Source: Deltaproteobacteria bacterium
GTDB taxonomy: Bacteria; Myxococcota_C; UBA6777
Reading direction: 5' to 3'
NCBI GenBank assembly: GCA_002731275.1
Contig: PCBK01000126.1
Coordinates: 1 to 33,994, forward strand
DNA: 33,994 nt
Shown here: positions 7,497 through 28,918 of the stretch, one piece after another
Layout: each line of letters begins with the position of its first letter
How positions within the stretch are numbered: the first letter of the stretch is position 1
Position numbers and translations under genes: made by a program
The notes under the pieces: model-generated
Seen by the model: the letters and a program-made list of their open reading frames with translations, nothing else
Told to the model about the DNA's origin: nothing
Database searches by the model: none

Positions 7497-8906
7497 ATGA
7501 GTAAGATATTCATGAACCGCCGACACTTTTTACAAAATGCAGGGATCGCATCACTGGCATTCAGCCCACTTATCACATCATCACGTGCGCTCGCAGACAC
7601 GGGCGTCAAACCACGACTCCTCTTCATCATGTTACAACATGGTGTGGGTGGCCCGGGTGGGGCCAAAGGGACAGAACACAACTTCACCTTTTCGCCGTGG
7701 CTCTCACCACTCACCCCGATCAGAGAGCACGTCACACTCGTCGATGGCCTCTTTGGTACATGGTGGGGTAACGCACACGATGAGTCATACGCACACCTCC
7801 TCACAGGCAGCGCCGACCCGGCGAAGCGAGGCGCACCTCGTACCCCCTCAGTTGAAACCTTCCTCGAACAAAAGCTCGGAAAGGGAGTCCTTCCGGCACA
7901 ACGACTGATATCATGGGCTGGTGGTTCAGCCAGAAGCAACGGCGCCTTGTCGCTTTGCTACGACACCCACTTGAAACCCATCTCACTACAAACAGGTACG
8001 CTCGCACAAGCCGCCATCCTCAACAACGTCGGTGGTGTGCAATCGAACGAAGCCAAACTTCGCGCACTCAGAGAGAAGCGCAAGAAGATCCTCGACGAGG
8101 TCGCAGGTGAGTTAAAAACCCTCCGCAGTCGCCTCACAGTCGAAGAAAAGATCAAGCTCGACCAATTCACCAACTCCATCAACGAGACCGCCTCAGCGCT
8201 CGGTCTCAATGGGACCATCAAAACAGGTGGAAATTGTCAGGCACCGACATCCATCCCCAAGGAGTGGTGGAAAATCCAGGGACACCAACGATACGAGCTG
8301 GGTATCAGCTCACAATTCTCCAACTTGAAGACGGCCTTTGCGTGCAACCTCACGCGATTTGGCGTGCTCAGGATCGGTGAAGTCCCCCACGATATCTATG
8401 ATTGGAAAGACTCATCAGGCAAGACCCGTAGAGGGAAGCCCTGTGGAAGTTCAGTCAACTTTCACCAATGTGTCGCCCACTACAAAGATCTCGAAGGGCG
8501 TTTGTGCTTTGAAGGCAGCGTCAAATGGTCCATTCAGAAGATCGCAGATTTCGCCAAAGAGCTGGACGCGATCAAAGAGCCCAATGGACACACGTTGTTG
8601 GAGAACACTATCATCGTGATCAGCGGTGAAGTCGGTGATGGAAACCACGACCGCAACCGCAAACCCTTCTTGGTGATCGGTGGACGTGGCGCGCCCGGAC
8701 TCAAAACAGGTCGCCACATCAAAATCCCTCAACAGCTCGGCTGGACCCTCAAGACACCAGATGGTGATATCAAACAACAACCATTTGCACGTGTCAGTCA
8801 ACGTACAGAACCTGACTTCTGGAGAGAGATCTGCGAAGCGATGGGTGTCAAACTCAAGACCTTCGGCTCTCCCTATCTCAATCGCGGACGCATCGGACTT
8901 CTCTAG
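7497..8906 (+). CDS. DUF1552 family secreted protein, copy 1
   Basis: This 469-residue protein belongs to the DUF1552 family, which has no known biochemical activity and is usually encoded next to DUF1592-type proteins. That is the case here. The N-terminus NRRHFLQNAG followed by a hydrophobic stretch and RALA fits a twin-arginine (Tat) export signal, so it is probably exported folded. Family features include the HGVGGPGG turn, TEHNFTFSPWL, LVDGLFGTWWGNAHDES and the C-terminal VISGEVGDGNHDRN block, and HDIYDW lies in the middle. The start at 7497 follows AAGGAG by 10 bases, and the paralogue at 12752 has the same MSKIFMNRRHFL start. It is first in an apparent five-gene operon. Its closest relative in view is the protein at 12752-14146. 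Confidence 0.85.
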   Translation: MSKIFMNRRHFLQNAGIASLAFSPLITSSRALADTGVKPRLLFIMLQHGVGGPGGAKGTEHNFTFSPWLSPLTPIREHVTLVDGLFGTWWGNAHDESYAHLLTGSADPAKRGAPRTPSVETFLEQKLGKGVLPAQRLISWAGGSARSNGALSLCYDTHLKPISLQTGTLAQAAILNNVGGVQSNEAKLRALREKRKKILDEVAGELKTLRSRLTVEEKIKLDQFTNSINETASALGLNGTIKTGGNCQAPTSIPKEWWKIQGHQRYELGISSQFSNLKTAFACNLTRFGVLRIGEVPHDIYDWKDSSGKTRRGKPCGSSVNFHQCVAHYKDLEGRLCFEGSVKWSIQKIADFAKELDAIKEPNGHTLLENTIIVISGEVGDGNHDRNRKPFLVIGGRGAPGLKTGRHIKIPQQLGWTLKTPDGDIKQQPFARVSQRTEPDFWREICEAMGVKLKTFGSPYLNRGRIGLL

Positions 8907-8948
8907 ACGAGAAGAGTACACTCACAGCCAAAAAGAGAGAAGTCTATC

Positions 8949-10472
8949 ATGAATATGTTTCGCCTCGGATTACTCACGTGTGTCCTGGCGTTTGTGTTTG
9001 TCCATTGTGGCGTCAGCCAAAACACATGCACCCCAGGAAACATTGGATATTGTCCATGTCCTGATGGTTCACAAGGTAAACGTACCTGTCAGGGGAACGG
9101 TATCTTTGGTGCATGTTACTGTCAGGTCACTCCGCCTAACACACGGACACCTGGAAAAGAAGCCAGTCACAACACAGAACCCACGACCACAACCGAACCC
9201 ACAACCACAACCGAACCCACAACCACAACAGAGAAAAGTACAAACACAGAACCTTCTGCAGAACCGACCCAGACGGAACCTGCAAAAGAAGTTGTCGTGA
9301 CACAAGAGCCTTCAGCAGAGCCGAATAACGGACAAGACGCCGGTGTACCAGAGCCTGTCAAAGAAGAAGAGAACAAACCGTGTAGCCCGACATGTGGTAA
9401 AGGTGCAACCTGCCAAAGCGGTTCATGTGTTTGCTCCGATGGCAAAGAGTACTGCCAAAATTACTGCTCAGATACACGCTATGACCCCCACCACTGTGGT
9501 TCATGTGGCAAAGCATGCAAGACAGATCAGGCGTGTGTGGACCAAGTCTGTCAATGCTTCTATTCAAAGCTGTTGCAAACAGATGAATTAGGTTGTCACT
9601 TCATCGGACATATTGCCTTCAGTCCTGACGCGAAGCTCGTAGCAGCAGTCCACTACAACTCGTGGGGATGCAACAAAACACCTGTCGGCGTCTGGAATGT
9701 CAAGACGAAAAAGCTCATAAAAACCATCGATAAATCCGTTAGAAGCCCTGCAAGTCTACACATCGCACACGACAACGACACGTTGCTCGTCGGTGGTCAT
9801 GTTGCGGTAGAGAGATTCAGCCTCACAGACAAAACGATCAAGAACAAACACATCTACCCAGGTGGTTTGGTGATAGGAGCAGCGCTCAACCCCATCGCTT
9901 CGGCAGACCAGATCGCGATTGGTGTCAAGAAACAATACGTGATGATCGCGGGGGCAGCAGCCAACGCAAAGACGACGAAGTTGCAAGGGTTTAAAGGGCA
10001 TCCTTTCTTGCTCGCGTATCGCCCAGATGGTAAGCGCCTCGCAGTTGCGTCGGACCAAAATGAGCTGTGGATTTACGACACGAGCACTTGGAAGGTCGTC
10101 AAAAAATATACGAAAAACACAGGTACACTGTCATCACTCTCTTACAACAAGAAGGGTGACACGCTCGCGATAGGACAAACGAACAGCAGCGTCGTGCTCT
10201 GGAAACCTGACACGGACACGATTGAGAGGACGATCAAGGTACCATCAACGTTTGACTACCGCGTGTATCACGCTGTCTTCAGTAAGGATGGTAAGTATCT
10301 GTTTTCAGCATGGGGTGATCGCACGGTAAAAATCCACGACCTCACCAATGGCCAACAAGTCCACGTCATTGGAAACCACAGAGATGAAGTACGCGCCTTC
10401 GCAGTATCTCCCGACGATAAAGTGCTGCTCTCTGGTGCTGGAAAATACCTCCGCTGGTGGGGGTGTCCATGA
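8949..10472 (+). CDS. Stig1-like/WD40-like beta-propeller lipoprotein, copy 1
   Basis: This 507-residue envelope protein has four parts. A signal peptide ends at C20 with lipobox-like FVHC; His before Cys is unusual. A Cys-rich motif follows (about 27-58, with CPCPDGSQGKRTC). A low-complexity T/E/P linker spans about 60-140. A Stig1-like module (about 145-203) contains EYCQNYC, DTRYDPHHCGSCG and ACVDQVCQC. The rest is a beta-propeller of WD40/YVTN type, with repeating units such as AFSPDAKLVAAV, YRPDGKRLAVAS, VFSKDGKYLFSAWGD and AVSPDDKVLLSG. Such propellers usually bind proteins. Both this gene and its paralogue (14246-15769) lie directly downstream of a DUF1552 gene, so the two products probably work together at the cell surface. 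The start is inferred from the paralogue; the ribosome binding site is weak. Confidence 0.8.
   Translation: MNMFRLGLLTCVLAFVFVHCGVSQNTCTPGNIGYCPCPDGSQGKRTCQGNGIFGACYCQVTPPNTRTPGKEASHNTEPTTTTEPTTTTEPTTTTEKSTNTEPSAEPTQTEPAKEVVVTQEPSAEPNNGQDAGVPEPVKEEENKPCSPTCGKGATCQSGSCVCSDGKEYCQNYCSDTRYDPHHCGSCGKACKTDQACVDQVCQCFYSKLLQTDELGCHFIGHIAFSPDAKLVAAVHYNSWGCNKTPVGVWNVKTKKLIKTIDKSVRSPASLHIAHDNDTLLVGGHVAVERFSLTDKTIKNKHIYPGGLVIGAALNPIASADQIAIGVKKQYVMIAGAAANAKTTKLQGFKGHPFLLAYRPDGKRLAVASDQNELWIYDTSTWKVVKKYTKNTGTLSSLSYNKKGDTLAIGQTNSSVVLWKPDTDTIERTIKVPSTFDYRVYHAVFSKDGKYLFSAWGDRTVKIHDLTNGQQVHVIGNHRDEVRAFAVSPDDKVLLSGAGKYLRWWGCP
9177..9230 (+). repeat. In-frame 18-bp tandem repeat (EPTTTT)x3
   Basis: Three consecutive 18-bp units encode EPTTTT in the linker of the propeller lipoprotein. 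The paralogue has a Pro/Glu/Ser-rich linker of similar length but different sequence at the same place. The segment is therefore under length or flexibility constraint rather than sequence constraint. Replication slippage is the likely origin. Confidence 0.8.
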
Positions 10473-10543
10473 ACAACAACGAAACAACCATCAACCCAAA
10501 AAAAATAGAGCCCATCCGGAACATAGCCCACACGGAGCAAGGT

Positions 10544-12724
10544 ATGACAGGCAACAAACGAATGCATAGTAAGAGTTGGCTTTTCTCAGGTTTCTCGTTG
10601 TGGTTGATCATCGGACTCAATCTCTCTTGGAGCGCATACGGCTGCTTGGGACAGATTGGAGAGACTGGATACGAGTACGTCTTCGTGGACGCCGGCCAGA
10701 CAACCCCTCCAGATCAGACGACGACCACGCCTGATAAAACAGTGACCACACCAGATCAGACGACAACCACGCCAGATCAAACAACGACCACGCCCGATCA
10801 GACGACGAAAACACCTGACAGCAGCGAACCACCTGTTTACTACGCAGATGTGTACAAAGGATTTTTGCAAGAGTTTTGCACAGGTTGTCATGGGAACGGA
10901 AGCTCTCAAACTCGGGTAGACAGCTACTCAAACGAAACCCATCTCGCCAAAGCAGGCAAGTCGAGCGCCTTCGATTATTGGACATATGCAAGAGATCGCA
11001 TCAAAAAAGGCGAGATGCCCTCCAAAAAACCCGTGGCAGAAGACGAACAACAACGTCTTAATGATGGTATCGCCCTCTTTGAGCGTTGGGCCAAAGCAGG
11101 TTTCCCAGAGAAAGCCGGCGGCTCCACAACTCCCAACGACTTCAAAGGCAAAGAAGATCCTTTTGTCGTCTTCCCAACAACTGCGACATGTAAAGGGAAG
11201 GATCCACTGCCAGCGCGTCTTTGGAGATTGACAGGGCGACAGATCCGATACAGCATCCTCGACGTGTTCGGGAGCCAACTCAACCTCCCAACGATCAACA
11301 TCAGCAGCAAGCGAAGTGGCGGTGTCACAAACAGCGCGAGCGAATCAGGGCTTGACAACGTCGATGTCACACAGCTGCTCAAGGCCTACGAGCAAGTCTC
11401 CACAGAGATCCTCAAAAACAACAAAGAGTGGAAAGATTGCCTGTCCAAGAGTGACGATACCTGTGTCAAACCCTTGATCACCAAGTACGGTCGCCTCTTG
11501 TGGCGAAGAGAGCTGACCCAAGAGGAGTCAGACAAACTCTTCCAAGGCTACAAATCCTTGGTGAAAGACTCACGAGATTATGCACTTGGCTTCATCATCG
11601 AGAGACTGATGCTCTCCTCTAAGTTTCTCTTCCGCTCGGAGATGGGAGATGTTGTCTCAGGCCAACCCAACACACGTCGCTTGAACCACCAAGAGGTCGC
11701 AACATTCCTGTCCTTTACGATCTGGCAAAGTGTACCAGACGATGAGCTGTTGACAGCCGCCAAAGAGAACCGCCTGGGAACACTCCCAGAAATCCGCGCA
11801 CAAATTCAACGTATGGCAAAAGATAAGCGAGCACTTCGCCCAATCGCCGAATTTATCACGGATTGGCTTCATATACGCGATATCCTCACGCTCCAAAAAG
11901 ACACCACAACCTTCAAAGAAATCACCCCCCAACTGCGACAAGATGCAGTGGATGCGGCGCTGAAGCTATTAGAACACGTCATTTGGGTCAAAAAAGGTTC
12001 CATCGCCGATGTCTTCCAAAGCAAGGATGTCTTCCTCAATAAAAACCTCGCGAAGCTGTACAGCAGCGTCAGCAGTACAAGTGACGGTCTGGAGATGAAG
12101 CAAGCAGACCCCACACAACGTATGGGGATTCTCACAACACCAGCCTTTGTGATGTCCCACTCCAAAGAAGCAACGACGGGCTTTGTCCACCGTGGCGTCT
12201 TTTTCCTCGAAGAACTCTCATGTAGACCGCTTGGTAACCCTCCAGATGACTTGAGCTCGGGTGAAGAACGAACCAAAAACGTCGACAAGAGCAAGCTCAC
12301 AACCCGACAACTTCTGGAGTCATTGCACTCGGCCGAGCCGAGCTGTAACAACTGCCACAAAAAGATCGATCCCATCGGTGCAGCCTTTGAGATTTTCGAC
12401 CCACTCGGACGTTACCGCATCATGGAAAATGGAAAACCCATTGACGCGTCAGGAAAGCTCGATGGCTTCAACGGTATGAAACCAGAGTTCAACAACGCGA
12501 TTGAGCTCATCAAAAACATGACCGACTCAACCCACTTCCGTCAGTGCTTCACACTCAAGTTGCACACGTACACTTGGGGAAGAACACCTGAAGGCATTCG
12601 CAACTGCTCTATCGCGACGATGTTTGAACACCTCAAAGGCAAAAACTTTGAGTTGCTTCAAGTGCATGAAGCGCTGCTTGCGAATCAACAATTCTTCCTG
12701 CGTACAGAGACAACAAAGAAGTGA
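10544..12724 (+). CDS. Planctomycete-type cytochrome/DUF1592 family lipoprotein with two CxxCH motifs
   Basis: This is a large exported protein of the PSCyt1-DUF1587-DUF1595-DUF1592-DUF1588-DUF1585 architecture. The haem-c motif CTGCH is at residues 112-116. RLTGRQIRYSILDVFG marks DUF1587, LLWRRELTQEESDKL marks DUF1595 and LNHQEVATFLSFTIW starts DUF1592. FVHRGVFFLEELSCRPLG and CNNCHKKIDPIG (second CxxCH, 601-605) are DUF1588, and the C-terminus is DUF1585. The frame is open from 10457, overlapping the previous gene. The ATG at 10544 has GGAG six bases upstream and puts a clean signal peptide and lipobox (SAYGC, C34) at the N-terminus, giving 726 residues. Some relatives are linked to extracellular redox or polymer degradation; the exact reaction is unknown. 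It sits between the two DUF1552 genes. Confidence 0.87.
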   Translation: MTGNKRMHSKSWLFSGFSLWLIIGLNLSWSAYGCLGQIGETGYEYVFVDAGQTTPPDQTTTTPDKTVTTPDQTTTTPDQTTTTPDQTTKTPDSSEPPVYYADVYKGFLQEFCTGCHGNGSSQTRVDSYSNETHLAKAGKSSAFDYWTYARDRIKKGEMPSKKPVAEDEQQRLNDGIALFERWAKAGFPEKAGGSTTPNDFKGKEDPFVVFPTTATCKGKDPLPARLWRLTGRQIRYSILDVFGSQLNLPTINISSKRSGGVTNSASESGLDNVDVTQLLKAYEQVSTEILKNNKEWKDCLSKSDDTCVKPLITKYGRLLWRRELTQEESDKLFQGYKSLVKDSRDYALGFIIERLMLSSKFLFRSEMGDVVSGQPNTRRLNHQEVATFLSFTIWQSVPDDELLTAAKENRLGTLPEIRAQIQRMAKDKRALRPIAEFITDWLHIRDILTLQKDTTTFKEITPQLRQDAVDAALKLLEHVIWVKKGSIADVFQSKDVFLNKNLAKLYSSVSSTSDGLEMKQADPTQRMGILTTPAFVMSHSKEATTGFVHRGVFFLEELSCRPLGNPPDDLSSGEERTKNVDKSKLTTRQLLESLHSAEPSCNNCHKKIDPIGAAFEIFDPLGRYRIMENGKPIDASGKLDGFNGMKPEFNNAIELIKNMTDSTHFRQCFTLKLHTYTWGRTPEGIRNCSIATMFEHLKGKNFELLQVHEALLANQQFFLRTETTKK
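10700..10819 (+). repeat. In-frame 21-bp tandem repeat (TTTTPDQ-like, about five to six copies)
   Basis: A degenerate 21-bp unit encoding TTTTPDQ (variants TTPPDQ, TTTTPDK, TVTTPDQ, TTKTPD) is repeated just after the lipobox of the DUF1592 protein. It would form an extended Thr/Pro/Asp tether between the lipid anchor and the first haem-motif domain. Confidence 0.85.
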
Positions 12725-12751
12725 ATCCAGGCAACAAGAAGGAGCAATGGC

Positions 12752-14146
12752 ATGAGTAAAATTTTTATGAACCGTCGACACTTTCTACGCAACGCAGGGA
12801 TCGCATCGCTGGCATTCAGTCCACTGATCACATCATCACGTGCGCTCGCAGATACAGGTGTCAAACCACGTCTTCTGTTTATCTTTTTGCCCCACGGTCC
12901 TGGCGGCCCTGGTGGTGGAAAAGGGACCGAGCACAACTTCACATTTTCACCGTGGCTCTCACCTCTGTCAGCGATTAAAGAGCACGTCACGCTGGTCGAT
13001 GGACTCTTTGGCACATGGTGGGGCAACGCACACAACGTCTCCTACGCCCACCTCCTCACAGGCAGCGCCAACCCCAACGGTGGCCCCCCACGCAACCCTT
13101 CTGTGGATGTCATGTTGGAGAAAAAACTCGGCAAAGGCGTTTTGCCTGTCCAGCGCCTTGTGGCCCGAGCGAGTGGTTATGCAGGTGGAAGACAGGTCTG
13201 CTATGGGGACAACCTCAAGGCGATCTCACTGCAAACAGCCTCACAAGCACAAGCCGCCATCCTCAACAACATTGGTGGTGTACAATCGAGCGAAGCCAAA
13301 CTTCGCGCGCTCAGAGAGAAACGCAAGAAGATCCTCGATGAGGTCGCAGGTGAGTTAAAAACCCTCCGCAGTCGCCTTACATCCGAAGAAAAAATCAAGT
13401 TTGACCAGTTCACAAACTCCATCAATGAGACCGCCTCTTCACTCGGCCTCAATGGGACCATCAAAACAGGTGGAAACTGTCAAAAGCCAGGCGCCATCCC
13501 CTCCACCAAAGGGCTCAGTCGCAACAAAGTCTACGAGCTCGGCATTGACACGCAGTTCGCCAACTTGAAGACGACCTTTGCGTGTAACCTCACACAATTT
13601 GGCGTCCTCTCGTTTAATGAAATCCCCCACGACATCTATGATTGGACAGACTCATCAGGAAAGACCCGCAGAGGAAAACCTTGCGGAAGTACGGAAAACT
13701 TTCACCAATGTGTCGCCCACTACAAAGACAAAGATGGACGTCTATGCTTTGAAGGCAGTGTCAAATGGTTCATGCAAAAGATCGCCAACTTTGCCAAGGA
13801 GTTGGACGCAATCAAAGAGCCCAACGGACACACGTTGTTGGAGAACACTATCATCGTGATCAGCGGTGAGGTCGGTGATGGAAACCACGACCGTAACCGC
13901 AAACCCTTTGTCGTGATCGGTGGACGTGGTGCGCCCAAACTCAAAACAGGACGTATCATCAAGGTCCCACAGCAATTTGGATGGGGCCTGACCACCACAG
14001 ACGGAAAGATCAGCATCGACAGTCGAGCCGCGATCAGCCAACGCACAGAGGCTGATTTGTGGAGAGAGATCTCACAGGCCATGGGCGTCAACTTGAAGAC
14101 CTTCGGCTCCCCCTATCTCAACCGTGGACGCATCGGACTCCTCTAG
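12752..14146 (+). CDS. DUF1552 family secreted protein, copy 2
   Basis: This is a 464-residue paralogue of the protein at 7497-8906, matching along its whole length. It has the same Tat-type N-terminus (NRRHFLRNAGIASLAFSPL), the same TEHNFTFSPWLSPL block, the HDIYDW motif and the C-terminal VISGEVGDGNHDRN and SPYLNRGRIGLL segments. The proteins differ mostly around residues 105-160 and 240-260, which may be specificity loops. The ribosome binding site AAGGAG is well placed before the ATG, 27 bases after the DUF1592 gene. The DUF1592-DUF1552 order seen here is the common arrangement of the pair in other genomes. The extra upstream DUF1552-lipoprotein pair is therefore the likely addition. Function is unknown beyond export and operon context. 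Confidence 0.85.
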   Translation: MSKIFMNRRHFLRNAGIASLAFSPLITSSRALADTGVKPRLLFIFLPHGPGGPGGGKGTEHNFTFSPWLSPLSAIKEHVTLVDGLFGTWWGNAHNVSYAHLLTGSANPNGGPPRNPSVDVMLEKKLGKGVLPVQRLVARASGYAGGRQVCYGDNLKAISLQTASQAQAAILNNIGGVQSSEAKLRALREKRKKILDEVAGELKTLRSRLTSEEKIKFDQFTNSINETASSLGLNGTIKTGGNCQKPGAIPSTKGLSRNKVYELGIDTQFANLKTTFACNLTQFGVLSFNEIPHDIYDWTDSSGKTRRGKPCGSTENFHQCVAHYKDKDGRLCFEGSVKWFMQKIANFAKELDAIKEPNGHTLLENTIIVISGEVGDGNHDRNRKPFVVIGGRGAPKLKTGRIIKVPQQFGWGLTTTDGKISIDSRAAISQRTEADLWREISQAMGVNLKTFGSPYLNRGRIGLL

Positions 14147-14159
14147 CACCTGGCTTTTC

Positions 14160-14215
14160 CAACCACACACTTTTAGTATTCAACTCCGCTCAACATCGAT
14201 GGGAGTGTGTGGTTG
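14160..14215 (+). repeat. 12-bp perfect inverted repeat between operon genes
   Basis: CAACCACACACT (14160-14171) and AGTGTGTGGTTG (14204-14215) form a perfect 12-bp stem around 32 bases. It fills most of the 99-base gap between the second DUF1552 gene and the second lipoprotein gene. There is no T-run, so it is not a typical Rho-independent terminator. It could stabilise or partly attenuate the transcript. Confidence 0.6.
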
Positions 14216-14245
14216 CCTGACCGAGACAATCGAAAGGTCTTTATG

Positions 14246-15769
14246 ATGAACATCTTCCGTTTGGGATTTTTGTGCTGCGTGTTTGCGTTTGTGTTTGTCC
14301 ATTGTGGCTCCAATCAAAACACCTGCTCTTCTGGGAATGTCGGATTTTGTACTTGCCCGGATGGTTCTCAGGGCGAGCGAAAATGCCTCAGCAGTGGTAC
14401 ATTTGGCGCATGCTATTGCAAAGTAAGCCCCCCACCCACCCGCAAAACAGAAGGCAGCAAAACAGAGCCTTCCCAAGAGCCGACGAAGACAGAGAGCGCC
14501 CCAGAGCCACGTCCAGAGCCTTCTGTAGAGTTGACTCCAGAACCTACGAAAGAACCCATTCAAACAGAACCCTCTCCAGAGCCTTCTGTGGAGCTGTCTC
14601 CAGAGCCGAGTGTGGAGCCACAAGAACAAGACGCAGGTCCTCCAGAGCAGCCCATCGACCAAGGAAACAAGCCGTGCAGTCCGGCTTGTGGTAAAGGGGC
14701 AACCTGTCAGGGTGGTTCGTGTGCTTGTGCGAATGGCGAAGAATACTGCCAAAATTACTGCGCAGATACGCGCTATGACCCCAATCACTGTGGGGCATGT
14801 GGGCGTATCTGTAAAGCTGAACAAACGTGTGTTGATAAACAATGTCAATGCTTCTATTCAAAGCTTATCCACACAGAGGATATGGGCTGCAATTATGTCG
14901 TGAACGTCGCCATGAGCCCTGATGGCAAATATACGGCGGGCATCAACATGAATGGGGGGAGTGGTTGTGGCGCGGATCTGACGGTCTGGGACACAAAGAC
15001 AAGAAAACTCGTCCTCCAACTCAAGAAACAGACATACAAGCCATCTTTCATCAAATACTTTCCAGACAACGATCTGCTCTTCATGTCAGGCGGTCGCAGG
15101 GTCAAGTGGTACAGCACAAGCCAAAAGAAATACATCAGCTACGCCGACTCACCGAGTAGAGCTACGGTCATTGAGCTCTCAGGGGACCCGACAAAAGGAA
15201 GACAATACGTCGCGATGGCAACAATTGCACCGTCCTTCTCTGTCGTCAATATGGCGAACCGCAAGACCGTGAAGTCATTTAAAACATTGCCCGGTCGCCC
15301 CAACGGTTTGATGTACCGTCCCGATGGAAAGCGTCTCGCGGTCGGCTTCTCCACAAAAGAGTTGTGGATCTATGATACGACGAGTTGGGCAACCACTCAA
15401 AAAATCACGCTCCCTGAAGGTGTGAAGACACTCGCGTACAGCAAAGATGGGAAACTTGTAGGTGTCGGCATGGGCGGTAACAAAATCGCGATTGTCGACG
15501 CTGCCGCAGGTACCATCCAGCGCACGATCACCTTCAACAACACCTTCACCTACGAGATCTACGATGTGGAGTTTAGCGCAGATGGCAAATATATCTTCTC
15601 CTCTTGGGGAGATAGAAGTATTAAGGTCCACGACGTCAGCACAGGCAGTCTCGTCCACACCATCGCAGGGATGCGCTTTGCAGTTTTGGGACTTGCGGTC
15701 TCTCCCGACGGAAAATACGTGATCTCAGGTTCCGGGAAAAAAGTCGAATGGTGGGGTTGCGGAAATTAA
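14246..15769 (+). CDS. Stig1-like/WD40-like beta-propeller lipoprotein, copy 2
   Basis: This is a 507-residue paralogue of the protein at 8949-10472, with identical length and domain order. The signal peptide ends in FVHC (C20), followed by the CTCPDGSQGERKC motif, a Pro/Glu/Ser-rich linker in place of the Thr-rich one, a Stig1-like module (EYCQNYC, DTRYDPNHCGACG, QCQCFYSKL) and a propeller (NVAMSPDGKYTAGI, YRPDGKRLAVGF, EFSADGKYIFSSWGD, AVSPDGKYVISGSG). The frame is open from 14207. The ATG at 14246 matches the paralogue's MNxFRLG start and has AAGG eight bases upstream; the ATG at 14243 is equally possible. It is the last gene of the apparent five-gene unit. It is probably membrane-anchored, with the propeller exposed for protein binding. 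Confidence 0.8.
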   Translation: MNIFRLGFLCCVFAFVFVHCGSNQNTCSSGNVGFCTCPDGSQGERKCLSSGTFGACYCKVSPPPTRKTEGSKTEPSQEPTKTESAPEPRPEPSVELTPEPTKEPIQTEPSPEPSVELSPEPSVEPQEQDAGPPEQPIDQGNKPCSPACGKGATCQGGSCACANGEEYCQNYCADTRYDPNHCGACGRICKAEQTCVDKQCQCFYSKLIHTEDMGCNYVVNVAMSPDGKYTAGINMNGGSGCGADLTVWDTKTRKLVLQLKKQTYKPSFIKYFPDNDLLFMSGGRRVKWYSTSQKKYISYADSPSRATVIELSGDPTKGRQYVAMATIAPSFSVVNMANRKTVKSFKTLPGRPNGLMYRPDGKRLAVGFSTKELWIYDTTSWATTQKITLPEGVKTLAYSKDGKLVGVGMGGNKIAIVDAAAGTIQRTITFNNTFTYEIYDVEFSADGKYIFSSWGDRSIKVHDVSTGSLVHTIAGMRFAVLGLAVSPDGKYVISGSGKKVEWWGCGN

Positions 15770-23208: not shown

Positions 23209-24978
23209 ATGATGAAAATCCCCGAGAGAGTCATGGAACATTTCCTGACAGGTGGTGAGCAAGCGCCACCAACAGACGTGTTGGCACAAAAAGGTCAGCG
23301 GTGGGACAACAGATACATCATCGGAGAGCTTTTGGGACAAGGTGGAATGGGCGTTGTGTACAAGTGCTGGGACGAGTGGCGAGAGAAAGAGATCGCGCTC
23401 AAACGCTTGCACCCTTGGCTGGCAACAGAGAGTCAGGCGCTCATACGTAACGAGTTGGAAGCACTCAACACACTCCAGCACGAAGCGCTCGTGAGGACAT
23501 ATGATCTTGGGTATCAACAAGAGACTGGCGAGTGGTACTTCACGATGGAGTATGTCGAGGGAGAAGACCTGGAAGCGACCCTATGCCGCGCAAAAGAACA
23601 TGAGACACTCCCATTATTTCCATCGGTTCGCTGGCTAGGATGGCTCGAAGCGCTCTGTGATGCGCTCTCCTACACCCACCAAAAAGGATGGCTACACAGG
23701 GATCTCAAACCTTCGAACATCATGCTTCTTCGGGATGGGAGCATCAAACTGCTCGACTTTGGGATCGCCCTCCCCGGTCAACATACGACACCTTCGGGAC
23801 AACCCACAGGGACTGCGTACTATATGTCTCCTGAGCAGCTCGAAGGAAAGGGACAGTTAACACCAGCATCGGATATCTATGCCCTTGGTGTGATTGTCTA
23901 CAGGTTGCTCACAGGACGCCTCCCTATGGGCCGTCTTCAAGGTCCCTGGTCCGACCTGAAAAAAGCGGGATGGACACCGGATTTTCCAAAAGAAGTCGAC
24001 GAATGGGTGCTCAAAGCACTTGAGACTGCTCCTCGCGATCGATACCAGGATATCGAGACGTTTTGGGCTGCGTGTCAGGCGCTTCCTTTCTCAAAAGTGG
24101 AGACCCAAACAGAGGAGCTTAGACAGTCCCCACCTCACCCCCCAAAAAACACCTTGTTCCACATCGATACGGACAAGGGACGACTTTTCGCGCACACACT
24201 CTTTGCACAAGGAGAGCTGTCCACACTTTACAAAGGCACGTACGAAACGCAGGACGAAACAAAAGACATGGTGATCAAAATCGTCGATGAGATCGAAGAT
24301 AACGATCTAATGGCTGACGAGATCCGCGTCTATACGCTGCTTCAAATGGACGAAAAAGACCGCAGCCAACACATCCCACTGTTGTCGGGACACTTTCAGC
24401 TCCCGGATGGACGACAGGGACTCTACCAACCTTACATCGACGCTCACAACCTCGAATACGTTCGACAAATATACCCTCAAGGTGTCCCCCTTGAGCACGT
24501 GATCTGGATCTTTCGTAGGTGCCTGAGCGTTATTGGATATGCCCATCACAAGGGCATTATACACGGAAATATCGACCCCACTCATATCCTCGTCAGAGGG
24601 TATGACCACAACGTCTTCTTGCTCGATTGGAGCTACGCCATCGTCGAACCCGCCCGCACAGGGCAAGGGTTTAAATGCTGGAATGCCCTCTACAGCGCGC
24701 CAGAAGTCAAACAACGCAAACCGCCTGTCCCAGGCTCCGATCTCTACTCACTCGCCCGGTGCGTCATCTACCTCCTCGGAGGTGACGTAGAAGCAGAAGA
24801 ATGTCCCGCCCATGTAGACGAACGCTTCGAGAGGTTTCTCGGCTTCTTTTTGCGAAAGAGCCCTCTACAGCGGGCACGGGATGCGTGGGAGATGTATCAC
24901 CAGCTAGGCAAATTACGCAAAGAGATCTTTGGAAAACATAAGTTTATCCCTTTTCCCATTGACCAACATACACACTAA
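23209..24978 (+). CDS. Ser/Thr protein kinase fused to a C-terminal pseudokinase
   Basis: The 589-residue protein carries two kinase-like domains and no membrane segment. Domain 1 (about 33-295) has all catalytic elements: glycine loop GQGGMG (43-48), K65, E82, HRDLKPSN (D165, N170), DFG (183-185), SPE (207-209) and D222. Domain 2 (about 315-575) keeps VIKI (K357), E371, APE (497-499) and SDLYSLA, but its glycine loop is eroded (FAQGELS). HRD has become HGN (452-454), the metal-binding Asn is H459, and DFG is DWS (473-475). It is probably an inactive regulator or scaffold. The ATG at 23212 is better spaced from GAGG than the one at 23209. It is first of four clustered genes; vWA partners are typical of TerY-P-like phospho-signalling. 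Confidence 0.9.
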
Positions 24979-24990
24979 GGAGAGAACATC

Positions 24991-26469
24991 ATGGGTGGTG
25001 GAATTTACGATCAAGACGTCGCGATCAGAGCACGTTCAAGCAACAACAACGTATTCGCATACCAGGGATACGGCGTCAACGCTGTTGAAGCGACAGAGAC
25101 ACAACAACAAAAGGTTCATCAATCGCTCGATCCATTCGACAAGGTGAGAGAGTGTAATAACGAGACGCCCATCGTGATCGCGCTTGATGTCACCCGTTCA
25201 CGGGGTGAAGACACTCGAACAGTCTATGAAAAATTACCGATGTTCATCGGTCAACTCTTGATGAAACAATACGTCCCAGGACCAGCGATCAGCTTCGCCG
25301 CGATTGGAGATGCCCACGCAGGAGATAAAGCCCCCCTTCAGGTCGGTCAGTTTGAGGCTGATAACAGACTCGATGATGTCCTCAGTCACGTCTGGATCGA
25401 AGAGGGAGGCGGCGGCACAGGCCAGGAATCCTACGAGTTGGCTGCTTACTTTTACAGCCGCACAAAGCTCGTCCAATACGAGAAGACGGGCAAGAAAGGA
25501 TACTTCTTCTTTGTGGGCGATGAAGGATACTACCCAACATTGCCCAAGAAACAGGTCCGCAAGATCATCGGCGACAAGCTCAAAAAAGACCTCGACTCCA
25601 TCGAAGTCTTCAAGGCATTACAGGAGAAATTTCATGTCTTCTTTGTCTACCCAACGCAATCCTGGGAATCGCGTATCAACGACATCGACGCAGAGATCAA
25701 AAAGCGCGTACAGGAAGCTGGCGGACAATACGATGGTGTCGACATCAGAGTCTCACTACTGTGGAACAACCGCAACGACCTTGACCTTCACGTGATCACC
25801 CCCTCCGGTGAGCGTATCTACTACGGAAACAAACAATCCCGCTGCGAAGGCTGGCTCGACGTCGATATGAATGTTCGTGGTGAGACGAGTAAACCTGTCG
25901 AAAACATCCGCTGGAAGACAGGGACTGCCCCCAAAGGGACCTACCAGGTCGTCGTGAGAAACTTTGCCTTCCACGAGCCAAAGAAGACACGCACGGAGTT
26001 TCAGGTAGAGTGCGAGATTGATGGCGAGATGAAGCACTTTTCGGGGACGATCTCTGACAAAGGCGAGACAGGTGAGAAGAGCGACGTCGTCGTCTATACC
26101 TTCGATTATGACCCCTCAAAAAAACAACTCCCAGTCGACGAAAATGACGAAAAATACGCAGGCTACAAAGACGAAGTCATCATCGAACAGTGGAGACGCG
26201 CCCTCCCAGATGAGAATATCTTGATGCTCGACGACCCCAAAGCCATCCTCGACGTGATGATGGGCGCGATGGCGATGGTCGAAGGGACCAGTGATATGGA
26301 GCAATTTCTCGCCTCTATGCGCTCACTTGACCGGACAACCCTCCGCCAAGAACAGATCGCCAGAGCGCTCGAAAAGCTCGCCCTCACACAAAGTAAGAGC
26401 AAGGTCGAAGTCCACAACCTGACACAAGCCAAGCAAGTAAAGAAAAAGCGTCGCACAAGTCGCCTCTAG
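24991..26469 (+). CDS. von Willebrand A domain protein with DUF2135/YfaP-like domain
   Basis: This is a 492-residue cytoplasmic protein. The vWA domain (about 58-225) has a metal-ion-dependent adhesion site: D66-V-T-R-S70 (DxTxS), a Thr in GGGGTGQES (T143) and D177 in FVGDEGYY. Residues about 252-345 (RVSLLWNN, DLDLHVITPSGERIYYGN, GWLDVDMN, KGTYQVVVRNF) resemble the DUF2135/YfaP beta domain, which often accompanies vWA modules. A helical stretch and a Lys/Arg-rich tail (KKKRRTSR) end the protein. The N-terminal 50 residues are Gly/Asn/Gln-rich, probably flexible and a possible kinase target. The gene begins 12 bases after the kinase gene, with AAGGAG overlapping that stop, so co-expression is near certain. 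It may be the substrate or adaptor of the kinase. Confidence 0.85.
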   Translation: MGGGIYDQDVAIRARSSNNNVFAYQGYGVNAVEATETQQQKVHQSLDPFDKVRECNNETPIVIALDVTRSRGEDTRTVYEKLPMFIGQLLMKQYVPGPAISFAAIGDAHAGDKAPLQVGQFEADNRLDDVLSHVWIEEGGGGTGQESYELAAYFYSRTKLVQYEKTGKKGYFFFVGDEGYYPTLPKKQVRKIIGDKLKKDLDSIEVFKALQEKFHVFFVYPTQSWESRINDIDAEIKKRVQEAGGQYDGVDIRVSLLWNNRNDLDLHVITPSGERIYYGNKQSRCEGWLDVDMNVRGETSKPVENIRWKTGTAPKGTYQVVVRNFAFHEPKKTRTEFQVECEIDGEMKHFSGTISDKGETGEKSDVVVYTFDYDPSKKQLPVDENDEKYAGYKDEVIIEQWRRALPDENILMLDDPKAILDVMMGAMAMVEGTSDMEQFLASMRSLDRTTLRQEQIARALEKLALTQSKSKVEVHNLTQAKQVKKKRRTSRL

Positions 26470-26483
26470 AGCAGGAGCCTCTC

Positions 26484-28001
26484 ATGTCGAGCACACCAGA
26501 AGCATACATTGTCGTCGGTTTGGGTTATGGAGATGAAGGAAAAGGCTCTATCACGGACGCGCTCACGCGCGTCTACAAGGCCAAACATGTCATCCGCTAC
26601 AACGGTGGTCCACAAGCCGCCCACCACGTCGTCACTGATGAAGGTCAACTTCACTGCTTTGCCCAATTGACCTCTGGGACATTCACTGAGGAAGTGCGTA
26701 GCCTCCTTGGACCGGAGATGTTGATCAACCCCCTCAACATGCTCGAAGAAGCTCGCGTTCTCGAAGAGGAGGGAGTCAAAGACCCCCTCTCAAGAGTGTA
26801 CATCGATCCGGCCTGCCTTGTTGTGACGCCCTACCACAGGCAGATCAACAGGATGAAAGAGTCCCTGAGAGGGACATCGAGACATGGCAGCTGCGGGCAG
26901 GGTGTCGGGCAGGCGTGGATGGACGCACAAAAAGAAGGTTACCCTGTCTTGCGCTTTGAAGACCTGTTCGACAAAGAGCGATGTCGTCAGTTACTCAAGT
27001 GGATCTGGATGATGAAGATCGATCTCGCCGAACAGTGGCTCGATCTTCATCCCGAACGTGAAGACTTGAGAGAGAGCTTACACCAACTACAATACGCCCT
27101 CCCCTACGAGGTTTTGTGTAAACAATACCTCGACTTTGCCTATCATTCGGGGGTTCACAAAGCCGACGTCGCGAGCGACCTCTCTGTACACCACAACCAC
27201 CAGACCTTGATCTTTGAGGGTGCGCAAGGTGTTTTGCTCGATCGAGAGAGGGGTTTTTGGCCCCACGTGACGCCCTCTGATACGACCGCAGGAGAAGCAC
27301 ACAAGATACTGGAACGCGCGGAGCTTCCTCACACTCCACATGTCTTGGGGATCTTACGTGGGTATGCCTCCAGACATGGTGCAGGTCCTTTTGTTTCGGA
27401 GGTCTTTGGACTCGAGCAGGCATTACCAGAACAACACAACGGGACCAATCGATGGCAGGGAGATTTTCGAGTGGGGTGGTTTGATTTGGTGAAGGCGAGA
27501 TATGCTCTTAAGGTCGCCAAAGAGGTCAACTCTATCGCTCTTACACAGCTTGACAGGCTCGCAATGTTAGAGCACTTCGAGGTCTGTACAGCTTATGAAT
27601 ACACGGGCTTTGTGGATGAAGCGCTTCATCGCTTCTTTGATGTGGAAGAGACAGAAGGTCGTGTGCTCATTCACGACATCCTCGTCCCTCCCAAGGCAGA
27701 CAGAAGCCACCAAGAAGAATTGACGAGGCGGTTGAGAGATTGCTCACCTATCACAAAGACCTTCGAAAGTTGGCCGACACAAGAGCGGATAGAGAGCTTG
27801 TGTCCGTCTCTTGAGACATTTATCTCCTTTCTCGAATCACCGGAAGGGCTCCAGACCCCCATCTCGATCCTCTCGTTTGGACCGACCGCTGAAGACAAAT
27901 ACTTTCTCCAAGATCTGCGCCCAACGACAGAGGTCCTGCTCTCTTCTGTTTGGTCCTCACCGACAAAAGATGTTCGCATTGCGAACAACGCTTGCACCTG
28001 A
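26484..28001 (+). CDS. Divergent adenylosuccinate synthetase (PurA) homologue
   Basis: The predicted 505 residues are longer than the usual 430 of PurA. The fold signatures are present: GYGDEGKGSITD (D17 equals the catalytic Asp13 of E. coli PurA), GGPQAAHHVV (H47 equals His41), FEGAQGVLLD, SDTTAG, GAGPFVSEV, RVGWFDLVKARYA and TQLDRL (D357, guanine contact). GTP-dependent chemistry is therefore plausible. The parts that set the substrate differ. GTTGRGIGPAY is replaced by HGSCGQGVGQAW, the aspartate loop GATTGRRRR is replaced by NGTNRWQGDFR, and the Lys before the guanine Asp is Gln. It is likely a specialised ligase on a nucleotide rather than the housekeeping enzyme. Its ATG is 14 bases after the vWA gene, with AGGAG between. 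A truly divergent PurA is the alternative. Confidence 0.8.
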   Translation: MSSTPEAYIVVGLGYGDEGKGSITDALTRVYKAKHVIRYNGGPQAAHHVVTDEGQLHCFAQLTSGTFTEEVRSLLGPEMLINPLNMLEEARVLEEEGVKDPLSRVYIDPACLVVTPYHRQINRMKESLRGTSRHGSCGQGVGQAWMDAQKEGYPVLRFEDLFDKERCRQLLKWIWMMKIDLAEQWLDLHPEREDLRESLHQLQYALPYEVLCKQYLDFAYHSGVHKADVASDLSVHHNHQTLIFEGAQGVLLDRERGFWPHVTPSDTTAGEAHKILERAELPHTPHVLGILRGYASRHGAGPFVSEVFGLEQALPEQHNGTNRWQGDFRVGWFDLVKARYALKVAKEVNSIALTQLDRLAMLEHFEVCTAYEYTGFVDEALHRFFDVEETEGRVLIHDILVPPKADRSHQEELTRRLRDCSPITKTFESWPTQERIESLCPSLETFISFLESPEGLQTPISILSFGPTAEDKYFLQDLRPTTEVLLSSVWSSPTKDVRIANNACT

Positions 28002-28096: not shown

Positions 28097-28918
28097 GTGT
28101 TGAGCAATACAAAGACGACAAAGAGCAAACAACTCACACCGTTCGAAGAGTCTTTCGAGAGTGATCCCAATATGGGCAACTTCCCGACACGGCTACAGGA
28201 GAAGAAATCGCCAAAGTGGGCAATATTTTTGCCGCTCGTCTCACTGTGGTATGGGCTCTGTTGGTACACCATCCCGCAGGATTCTCTCAGCAAGTGGCTG
28301 CAAGGGCTGGCTTTGATCTTTACACCTTCTTCGGCAGGTAAGTGGATGGAACATTTCCAACCTGTCGCTTGGATCGCCCTCGCATTATTTGGCAGCCTTT
28401 GTCTCGCAGGTGTCTTGATGCAGCTATCTCGCGATGAAGTTGTCGTTGAGTTCGCAGGATGGGTCGTCCGATCTGGCCTCTTCTTCGTGATCTTGATGGT
28501 GTTTCAGCTCTTCTTTTTGGGGCAAACGACAAAACAACACACATTTGCCGAAGTCATCTTCTTTTCAGGTGCAGGTGGGAGCGTCTTTGGTGGGTTGTAC
28601 ACGTTGCTCGTCGATTGGGAAGACACAGAGTCCTCTTCTGTCGTCGTCGCTATGACCTTTGCCGTCGTCGGCATGATGCTATTCGCCGGCTTCGTGGGCT
28701 GGTTGGTCATGGACGTCGGCTGGGAATGGATGGAGATCTTTATCGGAATCAGGGGCATGGTTGTCGGTGGTGTGATGGGGGCAGGTCTTGGTTTTGGACT
28801 CAGCTCACTCTTTGGGGAGCTCTTTGACGCCTTCTTCAAGCGCCTGCTTATTGCGGGTGTGACAGCCAGCGCACTACATATATCCCTACTCGCCGTGCAT
28901 CACCTGGGGTTCCTGTGA
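28097..28918 (+). CDS. Multi-pass membrane protein of the kinase operon
   Basis: No family is recognised. The 273-residue protein has a soluble N-terminus of about 45 residues and six to seven hydrophobic helices (about 46-64, 90-106, 118-138, 150-170, 180-205, 215-240 and 250-272). One of them is Gly-rich (MVVGGVMGAGLGFGL). The frame is open from 27950, inside the PurA-like gene. The GTG at 28097 is preceded by AGGAG with seven bases spacing and is the likely start. The 95-base gap after the PurA-like gene shows no terminator, so it probably belongs to the same operon. It could be a membrane receptor, effector or anchor for the cytoplasmic kinase/vWA/PurA-like proteins; this is inferred from position only. 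Confidence 0.7.
   Translation: MLSNTKTTKSKQLTPFEESFESDPNMGNFPTRLQEKKSPKWAIFLPLVSLWYGLCWYTIPQDSLSKWLQGLALIFTPSSAGKWMEHFQPVAWIALALFGSLCLAGVLMQLSRDEVVVEFAGWVVRSGLFFVILMVFQLFFLGQTTKQHTFAEVIFFSGAGGSVFGGLYTLLVDWEDTESSSVVVAMTFAVVGMMLFAGFVGWLVMDVGWEWMEIFIGIRGMVVGGVMGAGLGFGLSSLFGELFDAFFKRLLIAGVTASALHISLLAVHHLGFL

Follow-up and report, generated by a model that had tools for sequence, protein, structure and literature searches.

What might a protein do that has kept the fold and the catalytic residues of adenylosuccinate synthetase (PurA), if the residues by which PurA holds IMP and aspartate have been exchanged? The question is raised by gene C, located in the 33,994-nucleotide contig of a Deltaproteobacteria bacterium that was analysed as a whole and is called here the window. 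The answer we favour, with a probability of roughly 0.6, is that the product of gene C would be a GTP-dependent ligase with new substrates, operating within a stress or phage-conflict cassette linked to NAD/ADP-ribose. The preliminary description of this DNA had noticed the unusual protein itself; beyond it, the main finding of the present analysis is that C represents a large family and belongs to a conserved cassette of kinase-like, vWA and PurA-like proteins, which is also found in phages. Coordinates of all features are collected in Table 1.

Table 1. Genes of the cassette, the gene that follows them and the diagnostic residues of the gene C product (PurA numbering refers to the E. coli enzyme)
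Feature	Position in the window	Strand	Remarks
Gene A	23209..24978	+	589 aa; N-terminal active-type Ser/Thr kinase domain and cassette kinase-like domain
Gene B	24991..26469	+	492 aa; vWA domain, MIDAS-like DVTRS, inserted beta-rich domain about 246-385
Gene C	26484..28001	+	PurA fold with rebuilt substrate site; basis: Pfam, phylogeny, site census, model
D17, catalytic Asp13 of PurA	26532..26534	+	invariant in family C (100%); the two PurZ examined have Ser
Q44, replacing Asn38 (IMP ligand)	26613..26615	+	PurA: N 100%; family C: Q 99%
H47, catalytic His41	26622..26624	+	100% in C and PurA
HGSCGQGVGQ (residues 134-143) in place of IMP loop GTTGRGIGP	26883..26912	+	Thr129 replaced by C137; Arg143 not kept
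H298 in place of Val273	27375..27377	+	TRHG-type motif vs TRVG; PurA: V 100%; family C: H 100%
HNGTNRWQGDFR (residues 318-329) in place of aspartate loop	27435..27470	+	Thr301/Gly302/Arg303 replaced by W/Q/G
D357, guanine-contacting Asp333	27552..27554	+	D in 98% of family C
Following gene	28097..28918	+	predicted membrane protein, 273 aa; ribosome-site-like GAGCAGGAG before GTG

The 505-aa product of gene C matches the Pfam family Adenylsucc_synt with E = 2e-75 and, scoring 225 and 197 bits, stays far below the two NCBIfam purA cut-offs of 402 and 396; that of the NCBIfam PurZ model is missed as well (70.8 bits against 300). The PurA fold was confirmed by structural modelling: the AlphaFold model (pLDDT 92.8, pTM 0.91) finds its closest structural match in E. 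coli PurA, with Z of 43.9 over 419 superposed residues, vs Z of about 32 for PurZ, and in the closed form matches ligated PurA. The surplus of about 70 residues remarked on in the preliminary description amounts to 73 aa relative to the E. coli enzyme and is peripheral in the model, where residues 484-505 make up a disordered tail. The three functional residues pointed out there, D17, H47 and the guanine-contacting Asp, do align with their E. coli counterparts. Among 83 dereplicated members of family C the catalytic Asp13, Lys16 and His41 are present in 100%, Gln224 in 97% and Asp333 in 98%; Ser414 and Gly416 of the GTP site are retained as well, while the guanine-site partner Lys331 is Gln in the gene C product and His, Cys or Asn in its relatives. 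An ordinary PurA with canonical loops is also encoded in the source genome (10.75 Mb, 200 contigs), so that gene C is not the housekeeping enzyme of its genome.

The nearest relatives detected by tblastn in annotated records reside on plasmids of Rhodococcus, Tsukamurella and Variovorax and in cluster C mycobacteriophages (Bixzunavirus), with 189 Mycobacterium phage records among the matches; phages of this cluster can be grown on the laboratory strain M. smegmatis mc2 155. A search of viral contigs with the single gene C protein gave no match; a seven-sequence alignment used as a query returned 80 loci from genomes and 80 from viral sequences, picked by similarity to C and thus not a random sample. 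They cover Actinomycetota, Myxococcota, Chloroflexota, Cyanobacteriota, Planctomycetota, Acidobacteriota, candidate-phyla bins and a Woesearchaeota bin, together with phage contigs up to 512 kb in length. In 60 genomes of the source lineage, matches to C look like ordinary PurA (best E 1.5e-45), those placed in the trees grouped with ordinary PurA, and no good match to B was registered; the cassette is also absent from the four genomes of the source organism's own taxonomic family, which makes its distribution patchy.

A position within the clade of ordinary PurA had been named beforehand as one refuting outcome; gene C does not group there. The first tree comprised 108 proteins, two of its rows labelled C (L032 and L185) being ordinary PurA, and it splits the 83 C-type sequences including gene C from 23 ordinary PurA and 2 PurZ with SH-aLRT of 100. 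A second tree of 49 proteins gave the same split with 100/100 (bootstrap and SH-aLRT, the former not fully settled at 0.988, and PurZ0 being outside the tree); closest to gene C there are Myxococcota sequences, among them L035 with 47% identity. The distinctness of family C from both PurA and PurZ is thereby strongly supported. On the Rhizobium leguminosarum plasmid NZ_CP121639.1 a remote PurZ/PurA-like gene is annotated next to purB; it belongs to a different PurA-like lineage.

Gene C is the third member of a conserved cassette A, B, C, which in the window occupies positions 23209-28001 with the genes adjacent and in this order. Their spacings of 12 and 14 bases, together with ribosome-site-like sequences, indicate one operon. 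The counts were obtained with profiles built from about ten loci, B being sought within 4.5 kb at loci with at least 2.6 kb of upstream sequence. Under these settings B is the neighbour of C at 79/81 bacterial and 63/63 phage loci (142 of 144), A is present in 62/81 bacterial and 49/63 phage loci, and the order A-B-C on one strand is kept in 100 of the 113 loci having both A and B. Neither A nor B was detected at any of nine ordinary PurA loci checked. The dN/dS values, estimated from two close pairs, are 0.12-0.30 for A, B and C alike. Carriers of the cassette are diverse bacteria, archaeal metagenome bins, plasmids, jumbo phages and cluster C mycobacteriophages, and its reality as a conserved unit is strongly supported. 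A search confined to open-access papers turned up no description of it; Swarozyc (PMC13174449) was checked and proved to be unrelated. No PADLOC model matches B or C, and the kinase of A matches generic kinase models only.

Variations in this arrangement were observed as well. Two Myxococcota loci, L035 with the closest relative of the gene C product and L036, have a C gene without nearby A or B, and in two loci of Myxococcus (L046 and L050) C is flanked by two B genes. Rhizobium phage RHph_Y65 (L029) and Vibrio phage phiKT1024 (L030) possess B and C without A, and share a neighbouring protein of 240-260 aa with 38% identity (L029:3738-4526 and L030:4039-4752). In loci of candidate phyla, archaea and Myxococcota (L033, L034, L037, L053, L058, L060, L078 and L088) the cassette has a pyruvate-kinase-barrel-like gene in its vicinity, frequently situated between B and C, the product of which is a possible extra component. 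The gene behind C in the window is probably the next one of the same transcript; it had no match in any related locus and is not part of the conserved cassette. Elsewhere in the window, positions 7497-15769 contain a tandem array DUF1552 - WD40 - DUF1592/1588 protein - DUF1552 - WD40, resembling a duplicated secreted-protein module, and the gene-poor segment 32805-33994 has short inverted motifs that occur repeatedly, for example gggttttaacccggtgg and gggactttgagtccca.

Proteins of family A have a kinase-like domain, in which the beta3 Lys (96%) and the alphaC Glu (98%) are preserved and HRD is mostly changed to HGA; 68 of 120 also contain an HPD-like motif of a J-domain-like region. The C-terminal half of the window protein is homologous to cassette protein A and to PHROG 3043, with HRD changed to HGN and DFG to DWS. 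The J-domain is absent from it, and an active kinase domain (Pfam Pkinase, 2.8e-55) is located in its place; this is the sole carrier of HRDLKPxN among the 120 A proteins, the fusion with an active kinase being unique there. The gene B product has no match in Pfam, is related to PHROG 2971 (8.5e-43), and its model (pLDDT 88.2) adopts a vWA fold, for which Foldseek gave the vWA domains of integrin betaI and of archaeal ArnB as matches. Its beta-rich insert is common to 11 other B proteins from candidate-phyla, Myxococcota and Leptospirales loci.

Such partners, a kinase-like protein without catalytic Asp and a vWA adaptor, taken together with the loss of substrate ligands in C, could suggest that C is a nucleotide sensor or a regulatory subunit of an A-B complex rather than a product-making enzyme. 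The invariance of Asp13, Lys16 and His41 in all 83 diverged members would be needless for a pure sensor, and we consider this explanation improbable, though it survives better than the other two alternatives weighed below.

As to the substrate site, the preliminary description had stated that the IMP and aspartate loops are replaced, and both replacements turned out to recur across the family. The motifs GSCGxGxG and HN....QG.xR were present in 4/4 sequences of the first alignment, and the gene C product has the cassette-type GSCGxG and HN..WQG loops. Since the same changes recur throughout a large family, they are not a matter of chance or sequencing error. The IMP and aspartate ligands Asn38, Thr129, Arg143, Val273, Thr301 and Arg303 are all replaced in the gene C product; in E. 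coli PurA the first three of them also serve the IMP 5'-phosphate. With positions counted as conserved at 85% or more, alignment of C with PurA revealed 45 identically conserved positions and 8 conserved but different ones: Asn38 to Gln, Pro56 to Gly, Ile126 to His, Thr129 to Cys, Lys267 to Arg, Val273 to His, Gly302 to Gln and Arg303 to Gly. For Arg143, which does not vary in PurA, family C shows no conserved equivalent. In a study of PurZ the base pocket is described as formed by the corresponding Asn, Thr, Gln and Val, and Arg303 as touching both the ribose of IMP and free aspartate (PMC8342488). The switched Asn38, Thr129, Val273 and Arg303 correspond to the contacts to base, ribose and aspartate given in that study.

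Altered loops by themselves do not prove a different substrate, and C may be imagined as an ordinary, but diverged, adenylosuccinate synthetase using IMP and aspartate and supplying AMP in infection or stress. The common fold, the match of the closed form to ligated PurA and the full catalytic core are in line with this assumption, as is the fact that jumbo phages carry other genes of nucleotide metabolism. However, near-invariant PurA residues (Arg143, Arg303, Thr129, Asn38 and Val273) are lost or substituted by other strongly conserved ones, the source genome already has an ordinary PurA, and the linkage to A and B is left unexplained, which makes this explanation slightly less plausible than a sensor. 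The simplest reading of the alignment is that GTP-dependent chemistry has likely been retained, with nucleotide and amine substrates different from those of PurA, and we hold it quite probable that family C has new substrates. The least plausible of the three alternatives is a role in DNA base modification, with C supplying the precursor in the way PurZ does for 2-aminoadenine (PMC8342488): it is suggested by the PurZ precedent, by the many phages that have C and by the name '2-aminooxy adenylosuccinate synthetase' that RefSeq and PHROG give to relatives in mycobacteriophages, but Asp13 is found in 100% of C vs Ser in both PurZ, the two group apart, the recurring partners are A, B and NUDIX rather than DatZ, MazZ or a polymerase, the cassette is in this sample equally common on bacterial contigs and in phages, and the PHROG label covers E. 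coli PurA too.

The genetic neighbourhood offers a hint of another kind. Counting at cassette loci alone, we registered an NrtR-like NUDIX-winged-helix gene as an optional companion: 43 of 87 bacterial cassettes, and a few phage ones, have it in their vicinity. Micromonospora and Actinomadura carry it upstream, Rhodococcus and Nocardia downstream, and in Allorhizobium it is divergent. NrtR regulators are reported to sense ADP-ribose (PMC9503650); the Nudix box is intact in some of the NrtR-like proteins and degenerate in others, as is expected of sensors. NAMPT genes accompany 8 distinct jumbo-phage cassettes and NMNAT-like genes 3; ADP-ribosylglycohydrolase genes lie close to 4 bacterial cassettes, and a NADAR gene is close to the cassette of Vibrio phage phiKT1024. 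Phage neighbourhoods are otherwise mixtures of early genes with no single dominant partner, and NAMPT and NMNAT genes may merely share the same early-gene island with the cassette. The window contains no NUDIX/NrtR-like or other NAD/ADP-ribose neighbour, nor do many other loci, and the link to this metabolism is therefore indirect. We treat it as a tentative working hypothesis, somewhat less secure than a role in phage-host conflict, another working hypothesis for which the chances appear to be even.

Based on these data one can assume the following scheme for the favoured ligase. C would keep the chemistry of PurA, in which GTP phosphorylates a carbonyl oxygen that is then replaced by an amine, while both other substrates would be changed, and its product would probably be an amine- or amino-acid-substituted compound of nucleotide type. 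It would work with A, contributing a J-domain and a kinase-like domain (in the window, an active Ser/Thr kinase fusion), and with B as a vWA adaptor. The cassette as a whole would be an accessory, horizontally spread module of stress response or phage-host conflict tied to NAD+/ADP-ribose metabolism. A more elaborate version, which we regard as rather unlikely in its entirety, is a conflict or signalling system, where C would make a nucleotide-type messenger or modification donor (a base or nicotinamide-type ring with an attached amine, such as an amino acid). A protein target would be held out by B and A, transmission or transfer would fall to A's kinase-like domain, or to the active kinase in the case of the window, and phages would use the system to keep rivals out or to resist NAD-based immunity. 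The reaction centre is intact, the pocket is newly conserved, and the cassette is found in bacteria far apart from one another, in archaeal bins, in jumbo phages and in some 190 sequenced mycobacteriophages of cluster C; taken together, this points to a new nucleotide chemistry with a physiological role. The annotations 'adenylosuccinate synthetase' and '2-aminooxy adenylosuccinate synthetase' on genes of family C are in this connection unsafe.

Compared with known systems, C resembles bacterial PurA (EC 6.3.4.4; E. coli structures 1cg3/1ade) in its fold, in Asp13/Lys16/His41 and Gln224 and in the guanine-site Asp333, and differs from it in the replacement of Asn38, Thr129, Arg143, Val273, Thr301, Arg303 and Lys331, in forming a separate clade and in its genetic context. 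With PurZ/DgsS, the 2-amino-adenylosuccinate synthetase of phages phiVC8 and S-2L, and with PurZ0 it has in common that a PurA relative is carried by phages, the substrate of PurZ being changed. The parallel with PurZ drawn in the preliminary description stands as a thematic likeness, and the retention of the catalytic Asp noted there holds throughout the family; the structure, however, is nearer to bacterial PurA, and the phage label gives the parallel no weight. Unlike PurZ, family C also has other partner genes, and its assignment to a PurZ-like base-modification family was rejected on the grounds of Asp13 and the separate clade. PaMx11_71 was dropped as a representative of PurZ0, since it is not a PurA relative. 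PHROG 1211, 2971 and 3043 are the groups of C, B and A of the window, respectively. The first lumps together PurA (that of E. coli included), PurZ and C under the '2-aminooxy' name, which is consequently not evidence of function; the second is without function and the third is named only 'kinase', no cassette being described by these groups. Two papers on Ter-type and NAD+/ADP-ribose conflict networks (PMC7824862, PMC9503650) have vWA proteins, Nudix-HTH regulators, phage carriage and NAD/ADP-ribose enzymes among their themes, and these are encountered at cassette loci as well. Neither paper mentions PurA or adenylosuccinate, and no Ter protein was identified in the cassette of the window.
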